In this document: positions 4,268-64,000 of the stretch, piece after piece
Numbering within the stretch: the first letter of the stretch is position 1
How the letters are laid out: every line of letters starts with the position of its first letter
Origin: Chloroflexota bacterium
Lineage (GTDB): Bacteria > Chloroflexota > Dehalococcoidia > GIF9 > UBA5629
Assembly (NCBI GenBank): GCA_016875875.1
Contig: VGOP01000001.1
Location: 204,501 to 268,500, forward strand
Direction: 5' to 3'
DNA length: 64,000 nt
Made by a program: the position numbers and the translations under genes
The notes under the pieces: generated by a model
Seen by the model: only the letters and a program-made list of their open reading frames with translations
The model's database searches: none
Told to the model about the DNA's origin: nothing

Positions 4268-4339
4268 TACCGCCTACCTCAGCGGTAAAGTGGGCAGCTG
4301 TTAACTGCTTGGCCGTAGGTTCGAATACTACCTCGGGAG
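4268..4339 (+). pseudogene. Decayed tRNA-Asn (anticodon GTT)
   Basis: The segment aligns over its full length with tRNA-Asn. The anticodon stem 4293-4297/4305-4309 encloses the loop CTGTTAA with GTT at 4300-4302. The T-loop TTCGAAT is at 4320-4326, with four of five T-stem pairs. The D-stem keeps only two of four pairs and the acceptor stem about four of seven, so it should not fold into a working tRNA. The preserved 3' half with an eroded 5' half is what an old integration site at a tRNA gene would leave. It sits at the left edge of an AT-rich patch of unrecognised genes. Confidence 0.6.
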
Positions 4340-13984: not shown

Positions 13985-14848
13985 ATGGAAGAAGACATAA
14001 AGTCCTTCCTCGATTACTTAGCCAGCGAGAAAAAATATTCCAAAAACACTTTGGCAGCTTATAATAACGATTTGAATCAGCTAGCCAACTATGTGAAATC
14101 GGAGGGCTCATCGGCTGGATTTGACCTTTCGGAGCCTAGATTTAACGCTGAACTTTTGCCAGGTTATCTGCAAAGTCTGAGGGGAAGAAGGTACACGCCA
14201 TCTACAGTAGCCCGCAAGATAGCTGCAGCTAAATCCTTCTTCAAGTTTATGGTGGATAGAGGCAGGCTGAGAAGCGATTTGGCACCGAATCTGGCTTCAC
14301 CTAAGGTGGGCAAACCACTACCTAAGCCCTTACCTGTTTCCGAAGTCCGTCGGCTGTTATCGGAACCAGCAAAGCTTTCCACCGTCGACGCAAAGAGAGA
14401 TAAAGCAATGCTGGAGGTGCTTTACGCTACTGGCTTAAGAGCCAGTGAACTGATGGCGCTAAACACACGAGATATTGACCTGAAGAAGAATACTGTGCGG
14501 TGCTCGGGTTCTAGGGCTCGAGTTATTCCTATTGACCCACCTGTAGCACGGCTTATTAAAGAATATGTTGATGCCGTTCGTCCTGATTTATTGAATGATG
14601 AAAAGGAAGTCGCTTTGTTTCTTAATCGCCGTGGCGAACGGCTTACCCGGCAAGGATTCTGGCAGATTGTTCAGGGGTATGCCGATAGGGTTGGGCTTAG
14701 TGGTAAGGTCACGCCTCGCAGTCTGCGGCATAGCTTTGCTGCCCATAAGCTTAAGAGTGGTGCCGACTTGCAATCTGTACAGGAGCTTATGGGACATGCT
14801 CATATTTCTACTACCAGGGTTTATACTCAGGTGGAGGTTCGTCCTTAA
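13985..14848 (+). CDS. XerC/XerD-like tyrosine recombinase with altered catalytic residues
   Basis: A 287-residue protein of XerC/D size with an N-terminal SAM-like core-binding domain (FLDYLASEKKYSKNTLAAY) and a C-terminal catalytic domain. Arg152 (GLRASEL), Arg248, His271 (MGHAHIS) and the nucleophile Tyr280 (RVYTQV) are present. The first position of the HxxR box is Arg245 (TPRSLRHS) where the family has His, and the beta-hairpin at 172-182 has no lysine where the family has GKGxKxR. Two of the six catalytic positions therefore differ. It could be the chromosome-dimer resolvase with a tolerant site or a degenerate paralogue. The downstream small gene is close and codirectional. Confidence 0.85.
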   Translation: MEEDIKSFLDYLASEKKYSKNTLAAYNNDLNQLANYVKSEGSSAGFDLSEPRFNAELLPGYLQSLRGRRYTPSTVARKIAAAKSFFKFMVDRGRLRSDLAPNLASPKVGKPLPKPLPVSEVRRLLSEPAKLSTVDAKRDKAMLEVLYATGLRASELMALNTRDIDLKKNTVRCSGSRARVIPIDPPVARLIKEYVDAVRPDLLNDEKEVALFLNRRGERLTRQGFWQIVQGYADRVGLSGKVTPRSLRHSFAAHKLKSGADLQSVQELMGHAHISTTRVYTQVEVRP

Positions 14849-56813: not shown

Positions 56814-57052
56814 CTCCTTACCTCCTTGTTACCTCTTTCATTATTTATAACGATCAAGCAGTAAATTAGTTTATTTAGGAGCTTCTAGATATATTATCTG
56901 CTTTATATCGTTTGAAGTGAATCGGGCGTCCGTATGATTTTCAATCGTAGAAACGCCTTACGACTAATGGCTATAGTTGCCAGCCACTTTTCCTAGTCCT
57001 TTTGTCCGATAGATAATATAATAGAAGACAGGCGGGTCTGCGGGAGTCGGTG

Positions 57053-59503: not shown

Positions 59504-60691
59504 ATGAACGATTTCGCAGAATTGGCTCAAGTTGCGATACATTGTGCTGGGACAGATATTTACATTGTCCAGAATGGAAAAAAATCTCAGCATGTTAACT
59601 CACTGCGCCAGGAGCTAGAAGGCTATACAGAGCAAGAACTGAGAGGTATGCACTCTCTGGATCACATTTATCCTGATGATAAAGAAGCAGTCGGGAAGAA
59701 GGCAACAGAAAACTCGAATGGCCACCATCTACTGTCCTATGAGCACATGCCTATAAAGAAGAACGGAAAGAAGAACGGTAATGGCAAGGCAATTTGGGTA
59801 CTAGAGAAAGCCACCTCAACTGAATACAGAGGAAATCAGGCCGCCGTGGGAAGCCTTGTGGACCTCATCGAACACGAGCGGTTGGAAGAAGCCATAACAG
59901 ACTCGGAGGAGAGGTATCGGGCTATCTTGAAGGAGATGCAAGATGCCTATTTCGAGGTAGACCTTGATGGTAATTTCACTTTCGTTAGTGATTCGCTGTG
60001 TCGTCTTCTAGGATACGCTAGAGAAGAGCTGCTAGAAATGAACTTTCGAGACCATATAGCCGAAGCGGGTGCTGAAGCTGTGTATCAGGCCTTCAATAAA
60101 GTCTATAATACCGGAAAGACGATCAAAAATCTTACTTATGAAGTCACTCATAAGAATGGTACCACTGTGATTGCTGAGACCTCGGCTTCTCTATTAAGGA
60201 ATGAGCAAGGAGAGATTATCGGATTCCGTGGTATTGGCCGCGATGTTACTGAACATAAGCGTGCGGAGGAAGCTTTAAGACGGTCGGAGGAGAGATATCG
60301 GGCCATGCTGGATGAGATGGAAGAAGGCTACTACGAGGTAGACCTTGCTGGAAATATCACCTTTGTCAATGACTCAATTTGTCGCCAATTCGGATGCGCT
60401 AAAGAAGATTTAATCGGTATGAACTATCGCTTCTATGTGCCCAAGGAGGATGTAGAGGGCGTGTATAAGACCTGGAATAAAGTCTACCGGACAGGCGAGT
60501 CCCTAAAATCGTATCATTTTGCAATTACTAAAAAGGGTAGAACACAAATATTCTTAGAAAACTCAGTCTCTCTTTTGCGTGATAATGAGGGAAAGATAAT
60601 CGGTTTTCGGTCAATCAGCCGTGATGATACCGAGCGTAAGCAGCTTGTGCAAAAACTTGCTGAGCTGGCGTGGCCATCCATGACTTGCTGA
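59504..60691 (+). pseudogene. Multi-PAS sensor protein broken in its output domain
   Basis: 395 residues. PAS folds lie at about 10-115 (partial), 130-250 and 255-380. The last two start SEERYRAIL and SEERYRAML and end GFRGIGRDVTEHKRAEE and GFRSISRDDTERKQL. After the last PAC segment the frame reads LAELAWPSMTC and stops. One frame over, the bases spell AIHDLLTGRGPTRHFYC, the start of a GGDEF output domain (HDxLTGLPNR). A 5-base duplication near 60669 (CTGGC-GTGGC) explains the frameshift. The GGDEF body itself is absent and tRNA-Lys sequence begins about 90 bases on, so the gene was truncated by an insertion or deletion at that tRNA. Confidence 0.7.
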
Positions 60692-60780
60692 CTGGCCGAG
60701 GCCCCACTCGCCATTTCTACTGCTGATGCCACTGCTAAATCAAGGCAAGGATACTCTGAAAGTTCTTGATTTTATCGGAG

Positions 60781-60830
60781 TGGTGGGCCGTACAGGATTC
60801 GAACCTGTGACACCCTGATTAAAAGCCAGT
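60781..60830 (-). other. 3' half of tRNA-Lys(TTT), likely attachment-site scar
   Basis: On the minus strand the 50 bases form the 3' half of tRNA-Lys from the anticodon stem to an encoded CCA (60783-60781): anticodon loop CTTTTAA, then a perfect five-pair T-arm ACAGG/CCTGT with TTCGAAT, and an acceptor end reading ACGGCCCA before CCA. The 5' half (acceptor, D-arm) is missing upstream of 60831. An attachment site that covers the tRNA from anticodon loop to 3' end is standard for tyrosine-recombinase islands, so this is one edge of an integrated element or its relic. Confidence 0.8.
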
Positions 60831-61134
60831 TGTTAATTTTCGTGCAATTTCACCGCATCCCAGATACGGATTTCCCTTCCGGCACAGCCCTCTTTTCACC
60901 TAGCCAGGTGCTCAAATTACCCGGGTTGGCAAGACGATTCGAGTACCCCCTCGGCCTATAAAGTAGCATGATTGGCTGATAATTCCAACACCCCATGTAC
61001 TTGGAGTGCAAAGCATCTGTTGCTGTGCAGCTCTCAGGAGAGCCATGGCGTAATGTCGTGTCATAGCAGCCCCCTGAACCTATGCTTGGCTCCAATGTCA
61101 CAAAACGGGCTACTGTGCAGCGGGATGCAACTTA
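60831..61134. other. Gap between tRNA scar and hybrid kinase
   Basis: These 304 bases contain no frame I trust. The short frames have unnatural composition. No integrase remnant is recognisable here. Confidence 0.4.
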
Positions 61135-63759
61135 CTACTGACCTCCGGTCAAAGCGCGCTTCACCTCTCCGCTCAACTGCTCAGGATTAAAAGGCTTGTC
61201 AATATGGGCAACTTTAGTCTCGGAGAGGAACTTTTCAGTATCGGCACCCATAATACCGCCGGTGATGAAGACCACTCTCCGGGCTAACGATTTGTCTATC
61301 TTTTGAATACGCTTGTAGAAGTCCACGCCACTTATGCCTGGCATCTTGATATCCACCAGGATGAGCTTGTATTTCTGGCTCTCAATTTTCTTCAGAGCAT
61401 CAGCAGCATTATCTACAGTCTCTACCTTGTACCCTTCACCAGTTAGCACCCGATTGACAACGTCCCTTATCACTTGTTCATCATCCACCACCAGTATCCT
61501 GACTTTGCCCGCCTTCTGAGATTTTTTAACATCTGGCTTGGGCGGCTTTGGCAGTACGGCTTCGGTGACTACAGGTAGTTCAACGATAAAGGTAGCACCA
61601 TTGCCCGGCTTGCTTTCGACGTATATCTTTCCCTTATGTTCGGTTACTATGCCATAGCACAGGCTCAAGCCCAGCCCTGTACCCTGACCTACCTCTCTGG
61701 TGGTGAAAAAGGGGTCGAATATCCTATCCATGACCGCTGGCCTTATTCCCGGGCCATCGTCCTGGCAGCATATCTTTATGGTGTTATGGCTCTTCTCCGT
61801 AGTTATGGTGATCTTGCCCTTGCCGTGAGCCAGCTTCATTTCCATCTCGGCGTTGACGATTAAGTTGAGCAGCACCTGCTGGATCTGACCCGGGTCAGCC
61901 ACAGTTTCGAGCACATCAGTAGTCAGCCGTGTAACAACTTCAATGTTGTTGACCCTCAGGTGATAAGCTCGCAGGACGAGTGTACTCTCTATAAGCTCGT
62001 TGATATCCACCAGCTTTTGCTGCGGCTCAGTCTGGCGAGAGAAGGCAAGCAGCCTCTGGATGATGCCGGCCACGCGTCGAGCGCCGTCATTGATAGCTTC
62101 CAAATCGCTCCTGATGCCCGGCGGGACGTCCTCTCGGTCCATAAGCAACTGGGCATAGCCGACGACTGCGGTGAGAGGGTTATTTATCTCGTGGGCAACA
62201 CCGGCTGCCATCTCGCCCACAGAAGCCAGACGGCTTGTCACCTGAGCCTTTAGCTCCAGTTGTCTCCTCAACTCTTCAGCCTTCTTGCGCTCGGTGATGT
62301 CACTACAGGCGCCGATCATCCTGTAGGGCTGGCCGTTCTCATCTCGCAGGGCAGTACCCTGGTCTGTCCAGTAAAGGTAGGCGCCGTCCTTGCGCTTGAT
62401 TCGGTACTCTTCGGCATAGGGCGTGCCTTTCTTAAGGTGGCCGTCCCGCGTGGCATTGACGCGGTCGATGTCGTCGGGGTGGATGGCCTTCTCCCAGGCA
62501 TCTCGGGTGCGGGGGAATTCAGCTTGCCCGTAGCCCAGTATTTTATCGATTCTGCCGTGCCAGTCTAGCCTTCCGCTGGTCATGTCCCAATCCCAGATGA
62601 GGTCGCTGGCGCTGGCGGCAGCGAGACGGAAACGCTCTTCGCTCTCAGCTAGTTCGTCTCTGGAGACCATTGTCTCATTAAGCTGTGCGGTCATGCGGTC
62701 AAAGGCACGCGACAGCTCGCCGGTTTCGTCCTTTGAGGCCGTGCCCACCCTGTACTCCAGGTTGCCGTCACCGATCTCCTCAGCGCCTTTGACCAGTAGG
62801 TGTAACGGTCTGGTGATGGTGCGGGCAAAGAGGAAGGCCAGCAAGGCCGCGGCCAGGGCGGCGGCAAAGATGCTGCCAGCCACCACCCATCCCAGCCGGA
62901 TGATTGGCGCAAAAGCCTCAGCCTGGTCTATCTCTGTGATGATGCAGACGTTAAAAGATGGCAGCCATGTGTAAGCGCCGATGACGGGCACGTCGCGGTA
63001 GTCTTTGTAGAAGCCCACGCCATCTTTGCCCGTCAAGGCAGCTTCCACGCCTTGGGTGTGGACTGCTTTCTTCAAGGAATAGCCCTTGCCAAACCGTGGC
63101 TCGGTGATGAAGAAGTTGAACTTATTTACCAGGTAGGTGTCCTCGGTCTGGCTCAGGCCGCTGCGCTGCTCCATAATCTTGGACAGCTCGACCAGGTTAA
63201 CTTGGCCGGCGAGGACGGCAATCAGGTTGCCCTGCCTGTCCTTGACGGGTGTGCCGATGACCATAACCGACTGCTCCAGCGTGGTGGAATAGTAGGTATC
63301 TTGGACATAGGTGCGGGTCTTGCCCCCGATATAATAAGGTTCACTTTTTTTGTACGTGCCCTCTTGCCTCTCGTTCGTAGAAGCCAGTACCAGCCCATCA
63401 CGGGGACATATTATGAACAGCTCGAAAAACCCCCCATATTGCAACCGAGGTTTCAGATGGTCCTCGATGGTGCTTTTCTGGGCCTGGCCATATGCGGGGT
63501 CAGATGTGTCACATGATACCAGCACTGCGGCGTACTCACTGACTAGGGGGCGTTGAGCCAGCTCCTCTATACTTTGCTCGTTGCCATGCACCCATCTTTC
63601 AAGCTCGGCTTCTCTGAGTATGTTGGTGGAGATAAGGTGACTTATGGTCTGCTGCTCTATTGTCCGCCGCCCGTTTTCGTAGGCCAGGTAGCCCACGATG
63701 ACCATGGGCACAATAGCAAGCAGTAGGAAAAGGATAGTCAGCCTGGGTGTAAGCTTCAC
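61135..63759 (-). CDS. Hybrid sensor histidine kinase with receiver
   Basis: 874 residues: a membrane helix at 7-27, an extracytoplasmic dCache-like sensor (about 30-285, GKTRTYVQDTYYSTTLEQSVMV-type), a second helix (about 290-315), HAMP, a PAS/PAC block (about 375-490, DLIWDWDMTSGRLDWHGRI), HisKA with His in GEMAAGVAHEINNPL, HATPase_c (NLIVNAEMEM, DDGPGIRPAV, GTGLGLSLC) and a C-terminal REC domain with phospho-Asp in LILVDIKMPGISG. It is a phosphorelay kinase for an external small-molecule ligand. The start overlaps the binding-protein stop (ATGA), which hints at a sensor linked to a periplasmic binding protein. Confidence 0.93.
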   Translation of the reverse strand: MKLTPRLTILFLLLAIVPMVIVGYLAYENGRRTIEQQTISHLISTNILREAELERWVHGNEQSIEELAQRPLVSEYAAVLVSCDTSDPAYGQAQKSTIEDHLKPRLQYGGFFELFIICPRDGLVLASTNERQEGTYKKSEPYYIGGKTRTYVQDTYYSTTLEQSVMVIGTPVKDRQGNLIAVLAGQVNLVELSKIMEQRSGLSQTEDTYLVNKFNFFITEPRFGKGYSLKKAVHTQGVEAALTGKDGVGFYKDYRDVPVIGAYTWLPSFNVCIITEIDQAEAFAPIIRLGWVVAGSIFAAALAAALLAFLFARTITRPLHLLVKGAEEIGDGNLEYRVGTASKDETGELSRAFDRMTAQLNETMVSRDELAESEERFRLAAASASDLIWDWDMTSGRLDWHGRIDKILGYGQAEFPRTRDAWEKAIHPDDIDRVNATRDGHLKKGTPYAEEYRIKRKDGAYLYWTDQGTALRDENGQPYRMIGACSDITERKKAEELRRQLELKAQVTSRLASVGEMAAGVAHEINNPLTAVVGYAQLLMDREDVPPGIRSDLEAINDGARRVAGIIQRLLAFSRQTEPQQKLVDINELIESTLVLRAYHLRVNNIEVVTRLTTDVLETVADPGQIQQVLLNLIVNAEMEMKLAHGKGKITITTEKSHNTIKICCQDDGPGIRPAVMDRIFDPFFTTREVGQGTGLGLSLCYGIVTEHKGKIYVESKPGNGATFIVELPVVTEAVLPKPPKPDVKKSQKAGKVRILVVDDEQVIRDVVNRVLTGEGYKVETVDNAADALKKIESQKYKLILVDIKMPGISGVDFYKRIQKIDKSLARRVVFITGGIMGADTEKFLSETKVAHIDKPFNPEQLSGEVKRALTGGQ

Positions 63760-64000
63760 CTGGCTTTAACTCCGTAGATTTCTTCCAGGAACCGCATGGT
63801 ATATGCCTGGTTCACATCAAAGGGAGCGGTAATGATCCCTTCCTCCAGCAATATCTGGTACATGCCTTCCCACCGCTCGGCTTTCATCCAGCCTATCTGG
63901 TCCTCGCCGGTGTGCACCAGCGGCAGTTGAGCTTCCATCATCTTGCTCTGGAGTTCAAGTTCAGGTTCTTTAGCATATTTTAGTGTCATCTCTACAGCCA
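63756..64000 (-). CDS. End of an NMT1/THI5-like substrate-binding protein
   Basis: The open frame enters from the right edge and gives a C-terminal segment: EMTLKYAKEPELELQSKMMEAQLPLV, W..ERWEGMYQILLEEGIITAPFDVNQAYTMRFLEEIYG. The pattern WE.M...L...G.I..P.D...A.T..FL is that of ABC-type SsuA/THI5-like (NMT1) binding proteins. Its N-terminus and signal peptide are outside the window. The stop overlaps the hybrid kinase start (ATGA), so the kinase may read the binding protein's ligand. Confidence 0.7.
   Translation of the reverse strand, partial: AVEMTLKYAKEPELELQSKMMEAQLPLVHTGEDQIGWMKAERWEGMYQILLEEGIITAPFDVNQAYTMRFLEEIYGVKAR

Follow-up and report, generated by a model that had tools for sequence, protein, structure and literature searches.

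Islands residing in tRNA genes are defined, in the description of Islander, by a displaced 3' fragment of the target gene, and the same description distinguishes crossover subsites within such genes (PMC4383910). Fragments of tRNA genes have likewise been presented as integration remnants (PMC9897764). In Dehalococcoides, islands are described at tRNA-Ala, tRNA-Arg, tRNA-Val and tRNA-Lys, with repeated tRNA fragments in the plastic regions of the chromosome, and a repeated island at tRNA-Lys is mentioned for strain 195 (PMC2764846). Dehalococcoides ssrA islands, by comparison, are described as standing in tandem downstream of one RNA gene, each closed by a fragment of that gene (PMC3146451).

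Against this background we examined a window of 64,000 nucleotides from a Dehalococcoidia genome (C1:204501-268500, where C1 is a 280-kb contig of a 1.97-Mb assembly in 20 contigs) that carries half of a tRNA-Lys gene between two convergent reading frames (Table 1). The locus resembles Islander-type islands in its 3' fragment, in the presence of an intact cognate tRNA, in a crossover near the anticodon and in the tyrosine recombinases found at other copies; it differs in that the integrase and the paired tRNA of the window fragment are not on its contig (PMC4383910). The tRNA islands described for Dehalococcoides belong to the same broad bacterial group and share the repeated tRNA fragments, but they come from another lineage, and the likeness noted here is one of description (PMC2764846). 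The ssrA islands use a different target and a serine recombinase as integrase, whereas the source genome uses tRNA-Lys and tyrosine recombinases (PMC3146451); we therefore rejected an ssrA island, with its ssrA fragment and CcrB-like serine recombinase, as an identity for the site, the fragment being tRNA-Lys and the recombinases at the other copies matching PF00589. As islands with repeated tRNA fragments, one of them at tRNA-Lys, have already been described in Dehalococcoides (PMC2764846), the window half is a well-known sort of footprint.

Table 1. Features of the half-tRNA locus and tRNA-Lys copies elsewhere in the genome (window positions unless a contig is named).
Feature	Position	Strand	Remarks
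PAS-repeat protein without GGDEF domain	59504..60691	+	truncation common to G003 homologue
Out-of-frame GGDEF-start remnant after 5-base insertion	60674..60723	+	limits by eye, against G000:C6, G001:C18
Putative attachment core (attR type): 3' half of tRNA-Lys(TTT), CCA encoded	60781..60830	-	the half tRNA-Lys of C1
45-base core common to other copies	60781-60825	-	within the half-tRNA 60781-60830
5' side of core, place of absent tRNA 5' half	60831..60892	-	D-arm not seen
dCache-HAMP-PAS-HisKA-HATPase-receiver hybrid histidine kinase	61135..63759	-	first gene on presumed island side; 54.7% GC
NMT1/THI5-like substrate-binding protein, C-terminal part	63756..64000	-	runs past window edge
Intact tRNA-Lys(TTT)	C12:23816-23888		beside tyrosine integrase
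Half tRNA-Lys	C11:45263		
Half tRNA-Lys	C16:645		
Half tRNA-Lys	C16:21296		

Direct reading of the minus strand from 60830 to 60781 gives CTGGC-TTTTAATCAGGGTGTCACAGGTTCGAATCCTGTACGGCCC-A-CCA, a stretch that spans the anticodon arm through to the encoded CCA. The anticodon loop reads CUUUUAA, with the anticodon UUU at 60823-60821; the T-arm occupies 60792-60808, the 3' acceptor strand 60785-60791 and the CCA 60781-60783. These 50 bases are 94% identical to the intact tRNA-Lys of the same genome, and ARAGORN called no tRNA across the 64-kb window, so that the original prediction of a tRNA-Lys 3' half with encoded CCA is confirmed. The Rfam tRNA model scores the half at 19.2 bits against a cut-off of 29, matching over model positions 9-63. 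Given this identity, and the 40 bases shared without change by five copies in the genome, a chance likeness to tRNA-Lys can be excluded on sequence grounds. Direct repeats of at least 24 bases in the window include no second copy of the core, with one unrelated 53-base pair listed, and the arm-like repeats around the window copy amount to a direct repeat of 9 bases and an inverted pair of 17 bases (76% complementarity), neither of which is persuasive. Scans of 60600-61250 returned two promoter-like sites (0.3 expected), both on the minus strand within the PAS gene, as well as one terminator-like site (0.5 expected). Elsewhere in the window, at 4275-4331 (plus strand), a tRNA match scores 24.4 bits, short of the cut-off of 29; by eye it resembles a decayed tRNA-Asn(GTT).

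To place the half among its relatives within the genome, we scanned the assembly with a 25-base pattern, allowing up to three mismatches and using the reversed pattern as a control. The pattern occurs in six places and the control in none. One of the six, on C14, belongs to another tRNA, by eye tRNA-Lys(CTT), and was set aside; the remaining five copies of the tRNA-Lys 3' end comprise one intact gene, on C12, and four halves. All five are identical over 40 bases (CTTTTAATC...GGCC) and diverge upstream of CTTTTAATC, and the window copy differs from the C11 and C16 halves by one substitution over the 45-base core. The intact gene lacks an encoded CCA, its end reading ..GGCCTACATT, TACATT. The intact tRNA-Lys(TTT) that the original prediction proposed to look for is thus present, and the second copy that it also sought exists elsewhere in the genome (one on C11 and two on C16); neither the pattern scan nor a similarity search found a partner on the same 280-kb contig.

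The other copies reveal what such halves accompany. On C16 the two halves are direct repeats that lie 20.65 kb apart and bound an island. The first copy is followed by two tyrosine recombinases (PF00589, 2.8e-34 and 8.1e-36; ORFs starting at 813 and 2530), and the cargo includes a protein of 1068 residues that matches N6-methylase and Eco57I models, together with a DnaN-like protein under its model's cut-off. On C12, a 469-codon open frame with a PF00589 match runs convergently against the 3' end of the intact tRNA-Lys. Before the C11 half stand an N6-methylase, which also matches HSDR_N, and a gene recognized by eye as HsdS-like. The interpretation of the window half as an integrase attachment core is well supported by the island between two copies on C16, by the divergence of the copies at the anticodon region and by the integrase at C12. 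The window fragment moreover has some of the properties of an island border, namely an intact cognate tRNA from which it stands apart, and a start at the anticodon crossover subsite. It lies on a different contig from the intact gene, and overlaps between contig ends do not order the two. The right end of C1 and the left end of C7 do share 127 bases; we discarded this overlap as a guide to contig order, because both ends enter one repeat.

When an element integrates at a tRNA gene, the tRNA is made whole again by the 3' half that the element brings, while the original 3' half is displaced to the far end of the insert. The anatomy for this is seen at C16 and C12 and would apply to the window copy by extension: an integrative element would have recombined at the anticodon-loop region of tRNA-Lys(TTT) through a tyrosine recombinase and left the displaced 3' half behind, at a gene that, with one intact copy and four halves, appears to have been used repeatedly in this genome. 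We put at about three in four the probability that the window half is a product of integration at tRNA-Lys, either as a border or as a scar; between a border that still stands and the scar of an earlier one, we judge the odds to be about even.

Since the displaced 3' fragment is expected at the far end of an element, the orientation of the window half would place its element on its 5' side, at higher coordinates. On that side, the segment C1:265330-279695 has a GC content of 51.2%, compared with 46.2-47.9% across 47 overlapping windows of the same length taken at lower coordinates, and the compared part of the kinase stands at 53.9% against 47.1-50.9% in 10 homologous stretches. The higher-coordinate side is in the same order in none of three same-genus genomes. 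Further along, C1:273163-279272 (L052:12164-18273) encodes an amino acid permease, a D-cysteine desulfhydrase-like enzyme, a glycyl radical enzyme and an activase, names that all rest on matches under exact-function cut-offs. The glycyl radical enzyme finds a match at 1e-60 in 39 of 84 genomes (the source genome counted) but identity reaches about 80% in no genomes other than G009 and G020, which belong to another genus, against at most 40% in other same-genus genomes. An IS3 transposase on this side is 94% identical to one on C12. No PF00589 match occurs in the 14.4 kb from the half-tRNA to the contig end, the presumed island side, and the sole such match in the window is a XerC/D-like protein at 13985-14848; the integrase and left end of the element would thus lie past the contig end or have been lost.

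On the lower side, genomes G001-G003 offer no match between 57019 and about 59343, so that this stretch too may be accessory. The 441-base junction at 60690-61130 occurs in one of 30 family genomes, the source genome itself (E 1e-17). An unoccupied site was sought in relatives and not found, the flanks being unjoined in G001-G003, which are incomplete genomes. We rejected G001:C18 as an empty site, because the PAS-GGDEF gene that comes after the end of a kinase gene there has the same orientation as the kinase, a different arrangement. Two further observations concern recombinases: G001:C40:2629-3006, compared with window position 57019, holds a weak recombinase-like remnant 31 bases from the end of the G001-window similarity, and at G000:C6:5296-9861 three tyrosine recombinase genes, or pieces of them, follow one another close to a tRNA at C6:10330.

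The original prediction attributed the truncation of the neighboring PAS gene, whose stop codon lies 89 bases from the half-tRNA, to the same island border. Alignment by eye with the PAS-GGDEF genes of G000:C6 and G001:C18, which have no insertion and whose ORFs continue through the GGDEF motif, shows a 5-base insertion that puts the GGDEF start out of frame, in agreement with the predicted frameshift and subsequent loss. DNA similarity to the PAS homologues ends at 60697 for two of the three compared and at 60691 for the third, that of G003. The 5 bases had been called a duplication; the insertion stands, by eye, but its origin by duplication is ambiguous, the site reading TGGCG-TGGCC in the window and TAACA-TGGCC in the G003 copy. 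This G003 homologue (C1:1146575-1147777; residues 1-394 of 395 align at 60% identity) has, by eye, the same insertion, lacks GGDEF and runs into its neighboring gene, and searches of G003 reported no tRNA-Lys copy near it. The half-tRNA therefore does not explain the truncation, and the proposal that an island border cut the PAS gene is not supported; on these alignments, the truncation is an event separate from integration. Nor could the convergent PAS/kinase pair, which DNA-level hits had suggested as a conserved arrangement, be retained as such, as the PAS and kinase matches lie on the same strand and continue as single genes.

If the half arose by integration, it may nonetheless be an orphan: excision, deletion or rearrangement may have separated it from its element, or it may have been carried in by an element inserting at a secondary site. 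In either case no border would exist there now. We consider such a scar a serious candidate, at somewhat less than an even chance. It would account for the lack of a tRNA-Lys partner on the contig and of an integrase nearby, and the single substitution, together with an imperfect 5' stem, suggests decay. The C11 half, not the window copy, carries the downstream flank found after the intact tRNA-Lys in G009 and G003 (in G003 this flank also follows a half), and G032 provides a precedent in a stray half beside tRNA-Glu, 91 kb upstream of its tRNA-Lys. The shift in GC content and synteny at the half-tRNA, by contrast, is what a border would produce.

Explanations that dispense with integration fare worse. 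A second tRNA-Lys gene could have decayed in place by deletion of its 5' half, a history compatible with the full CCA end of the window copy and with a GGGCTGT at 60884-60890 (minus strand) that could pair with the acceptor strand. We regard it as improbable, since the 105-base stretch at the site folds no better than shuffled sequence (z 0.34; 126 of 200 shuffles fold at least equally well), neither ARAGORN nor the Rfam model at its cut-off recognizes a tRNA, and the fragment begins where displaced halves begin in other genomes. Similarity of the 5' side of the core to any other copy extends at best about 16 bases past the core, in G027. An assembly chimera could likewise have formed at a core that is present five times in the assembly; this is very improbable, as the contig-end overlap of 127 bases is more than twice the length of the repeat, suggesting that the assembler spans the core and making a false join there unlikely, and the 441-base junction matches once in the genome.

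Integration at tRNA-Lys may also have taken a more elaborate form. Four halves, of which G032 has two and G029 and G031 have one each, have upstream flanks with 138-144 bases in common, at 76-91% identity; at the C11 half the shared module extends for only 23-25 bases (25 in L002), and the half of locus L140 was compared with these flanks by eye. This end module of about 140 bases, next to half-tRNA-Lys at L079, L091, L073 and L092, includes a TTGCTAACATTTTTGCTAACG-like motif in paired form. In the pattern TTGCHRAC-AT(3-5)-GCYRAC, the paired motif occurs at eight distinct places among all loci examined and not at all in 20 rounds of shuffling loci of at least 5 kb. Five of the eight lie within 160 bases of a tRNA-Lys core (C11, C12, C16, G032 and G038), a nearness partly built in because many of the loci were chosen for carrying the core; in L140 a sixth follows the intact tRNA-Lys at a distance of 18 bases; the other two, in G029 and G031, are 530 bases and 2.5 kb away. 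The paired motif is absent from the 64-kb window.

In G032:C3:8098-12969 (L111) and L140:56-3626, stretches of 1.5-3.5 kb lie between tRNA-Lys copies. They contain no ORF matching a small recombinase model. Their genes are an MqsR-like toxin gene (PF15723) plus a neighbor, a GHKL-like ATPase gene plus a neighbor, or a kinase-TPR pair, all names other than MqsR being assigned by eye. Such stretches may have been moved in trans. On a broader proposal, tRNA-Lys would be an array site for small cassettes that lack an integrase, have conserved ends with the paired motif, and depend for movement in trans on prophage-like integrases, the elements of which bear the same motif at their own ends, with the window copy an ectopic or decayed member; we hold this to be rather unlikely.

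Integration at tRNA-Lys, the reading that we prefer, can be followed through the order. A search of 84 genomes with the intact tRNA-Lys (74-base query, E 1e-9) returned 121 rows: 78 near full-length matches, 33 three-prime fragments (beginning no earlier than query position 20 and ending no earlier than 69), seven of five-prime type and three set aside (contig-edge fragments in G030 and G066 and an internal match in G049). The 33 three-prime fragments fall in 18 of the 84 genomes and all start at positions 21-32, 26 of them at 27-32, a distribution partly set by the cut-off, as E 1e-9 cannot see short fragments of the T-loop type. Twenty-five, in 11 genomes, are at least 94% identical to the query; those of low identity may be diverged whole tRNAs. 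The same 40-base core was found in 13 named stretches, 10 titled Dehalococcoidia, Chloroflexi or Chloroflexota, two Atribacteria, where the match is part of an intact tRNA-Lys, and one Stahlbacteria; taken with the kinship of the other genomes, these titles suggest that the source genome is one of the Dehalococcoidia. Exact searches of viral contigs with two 40-base core patterns gave no match. In G003, C1:422353-422594 holds two inverted half-tRNA-Lys copies about 150 bases apart, near a run of N.

These results caution against blaming the break in a gene on a half-tRNA simply because the two are neighbors. They point to frequent use of tRNA-Lys for integration in this order of Chloroflexota, and the 45-base core would serve as a sequence tag for locating the ends of islands in fragmented genomes.
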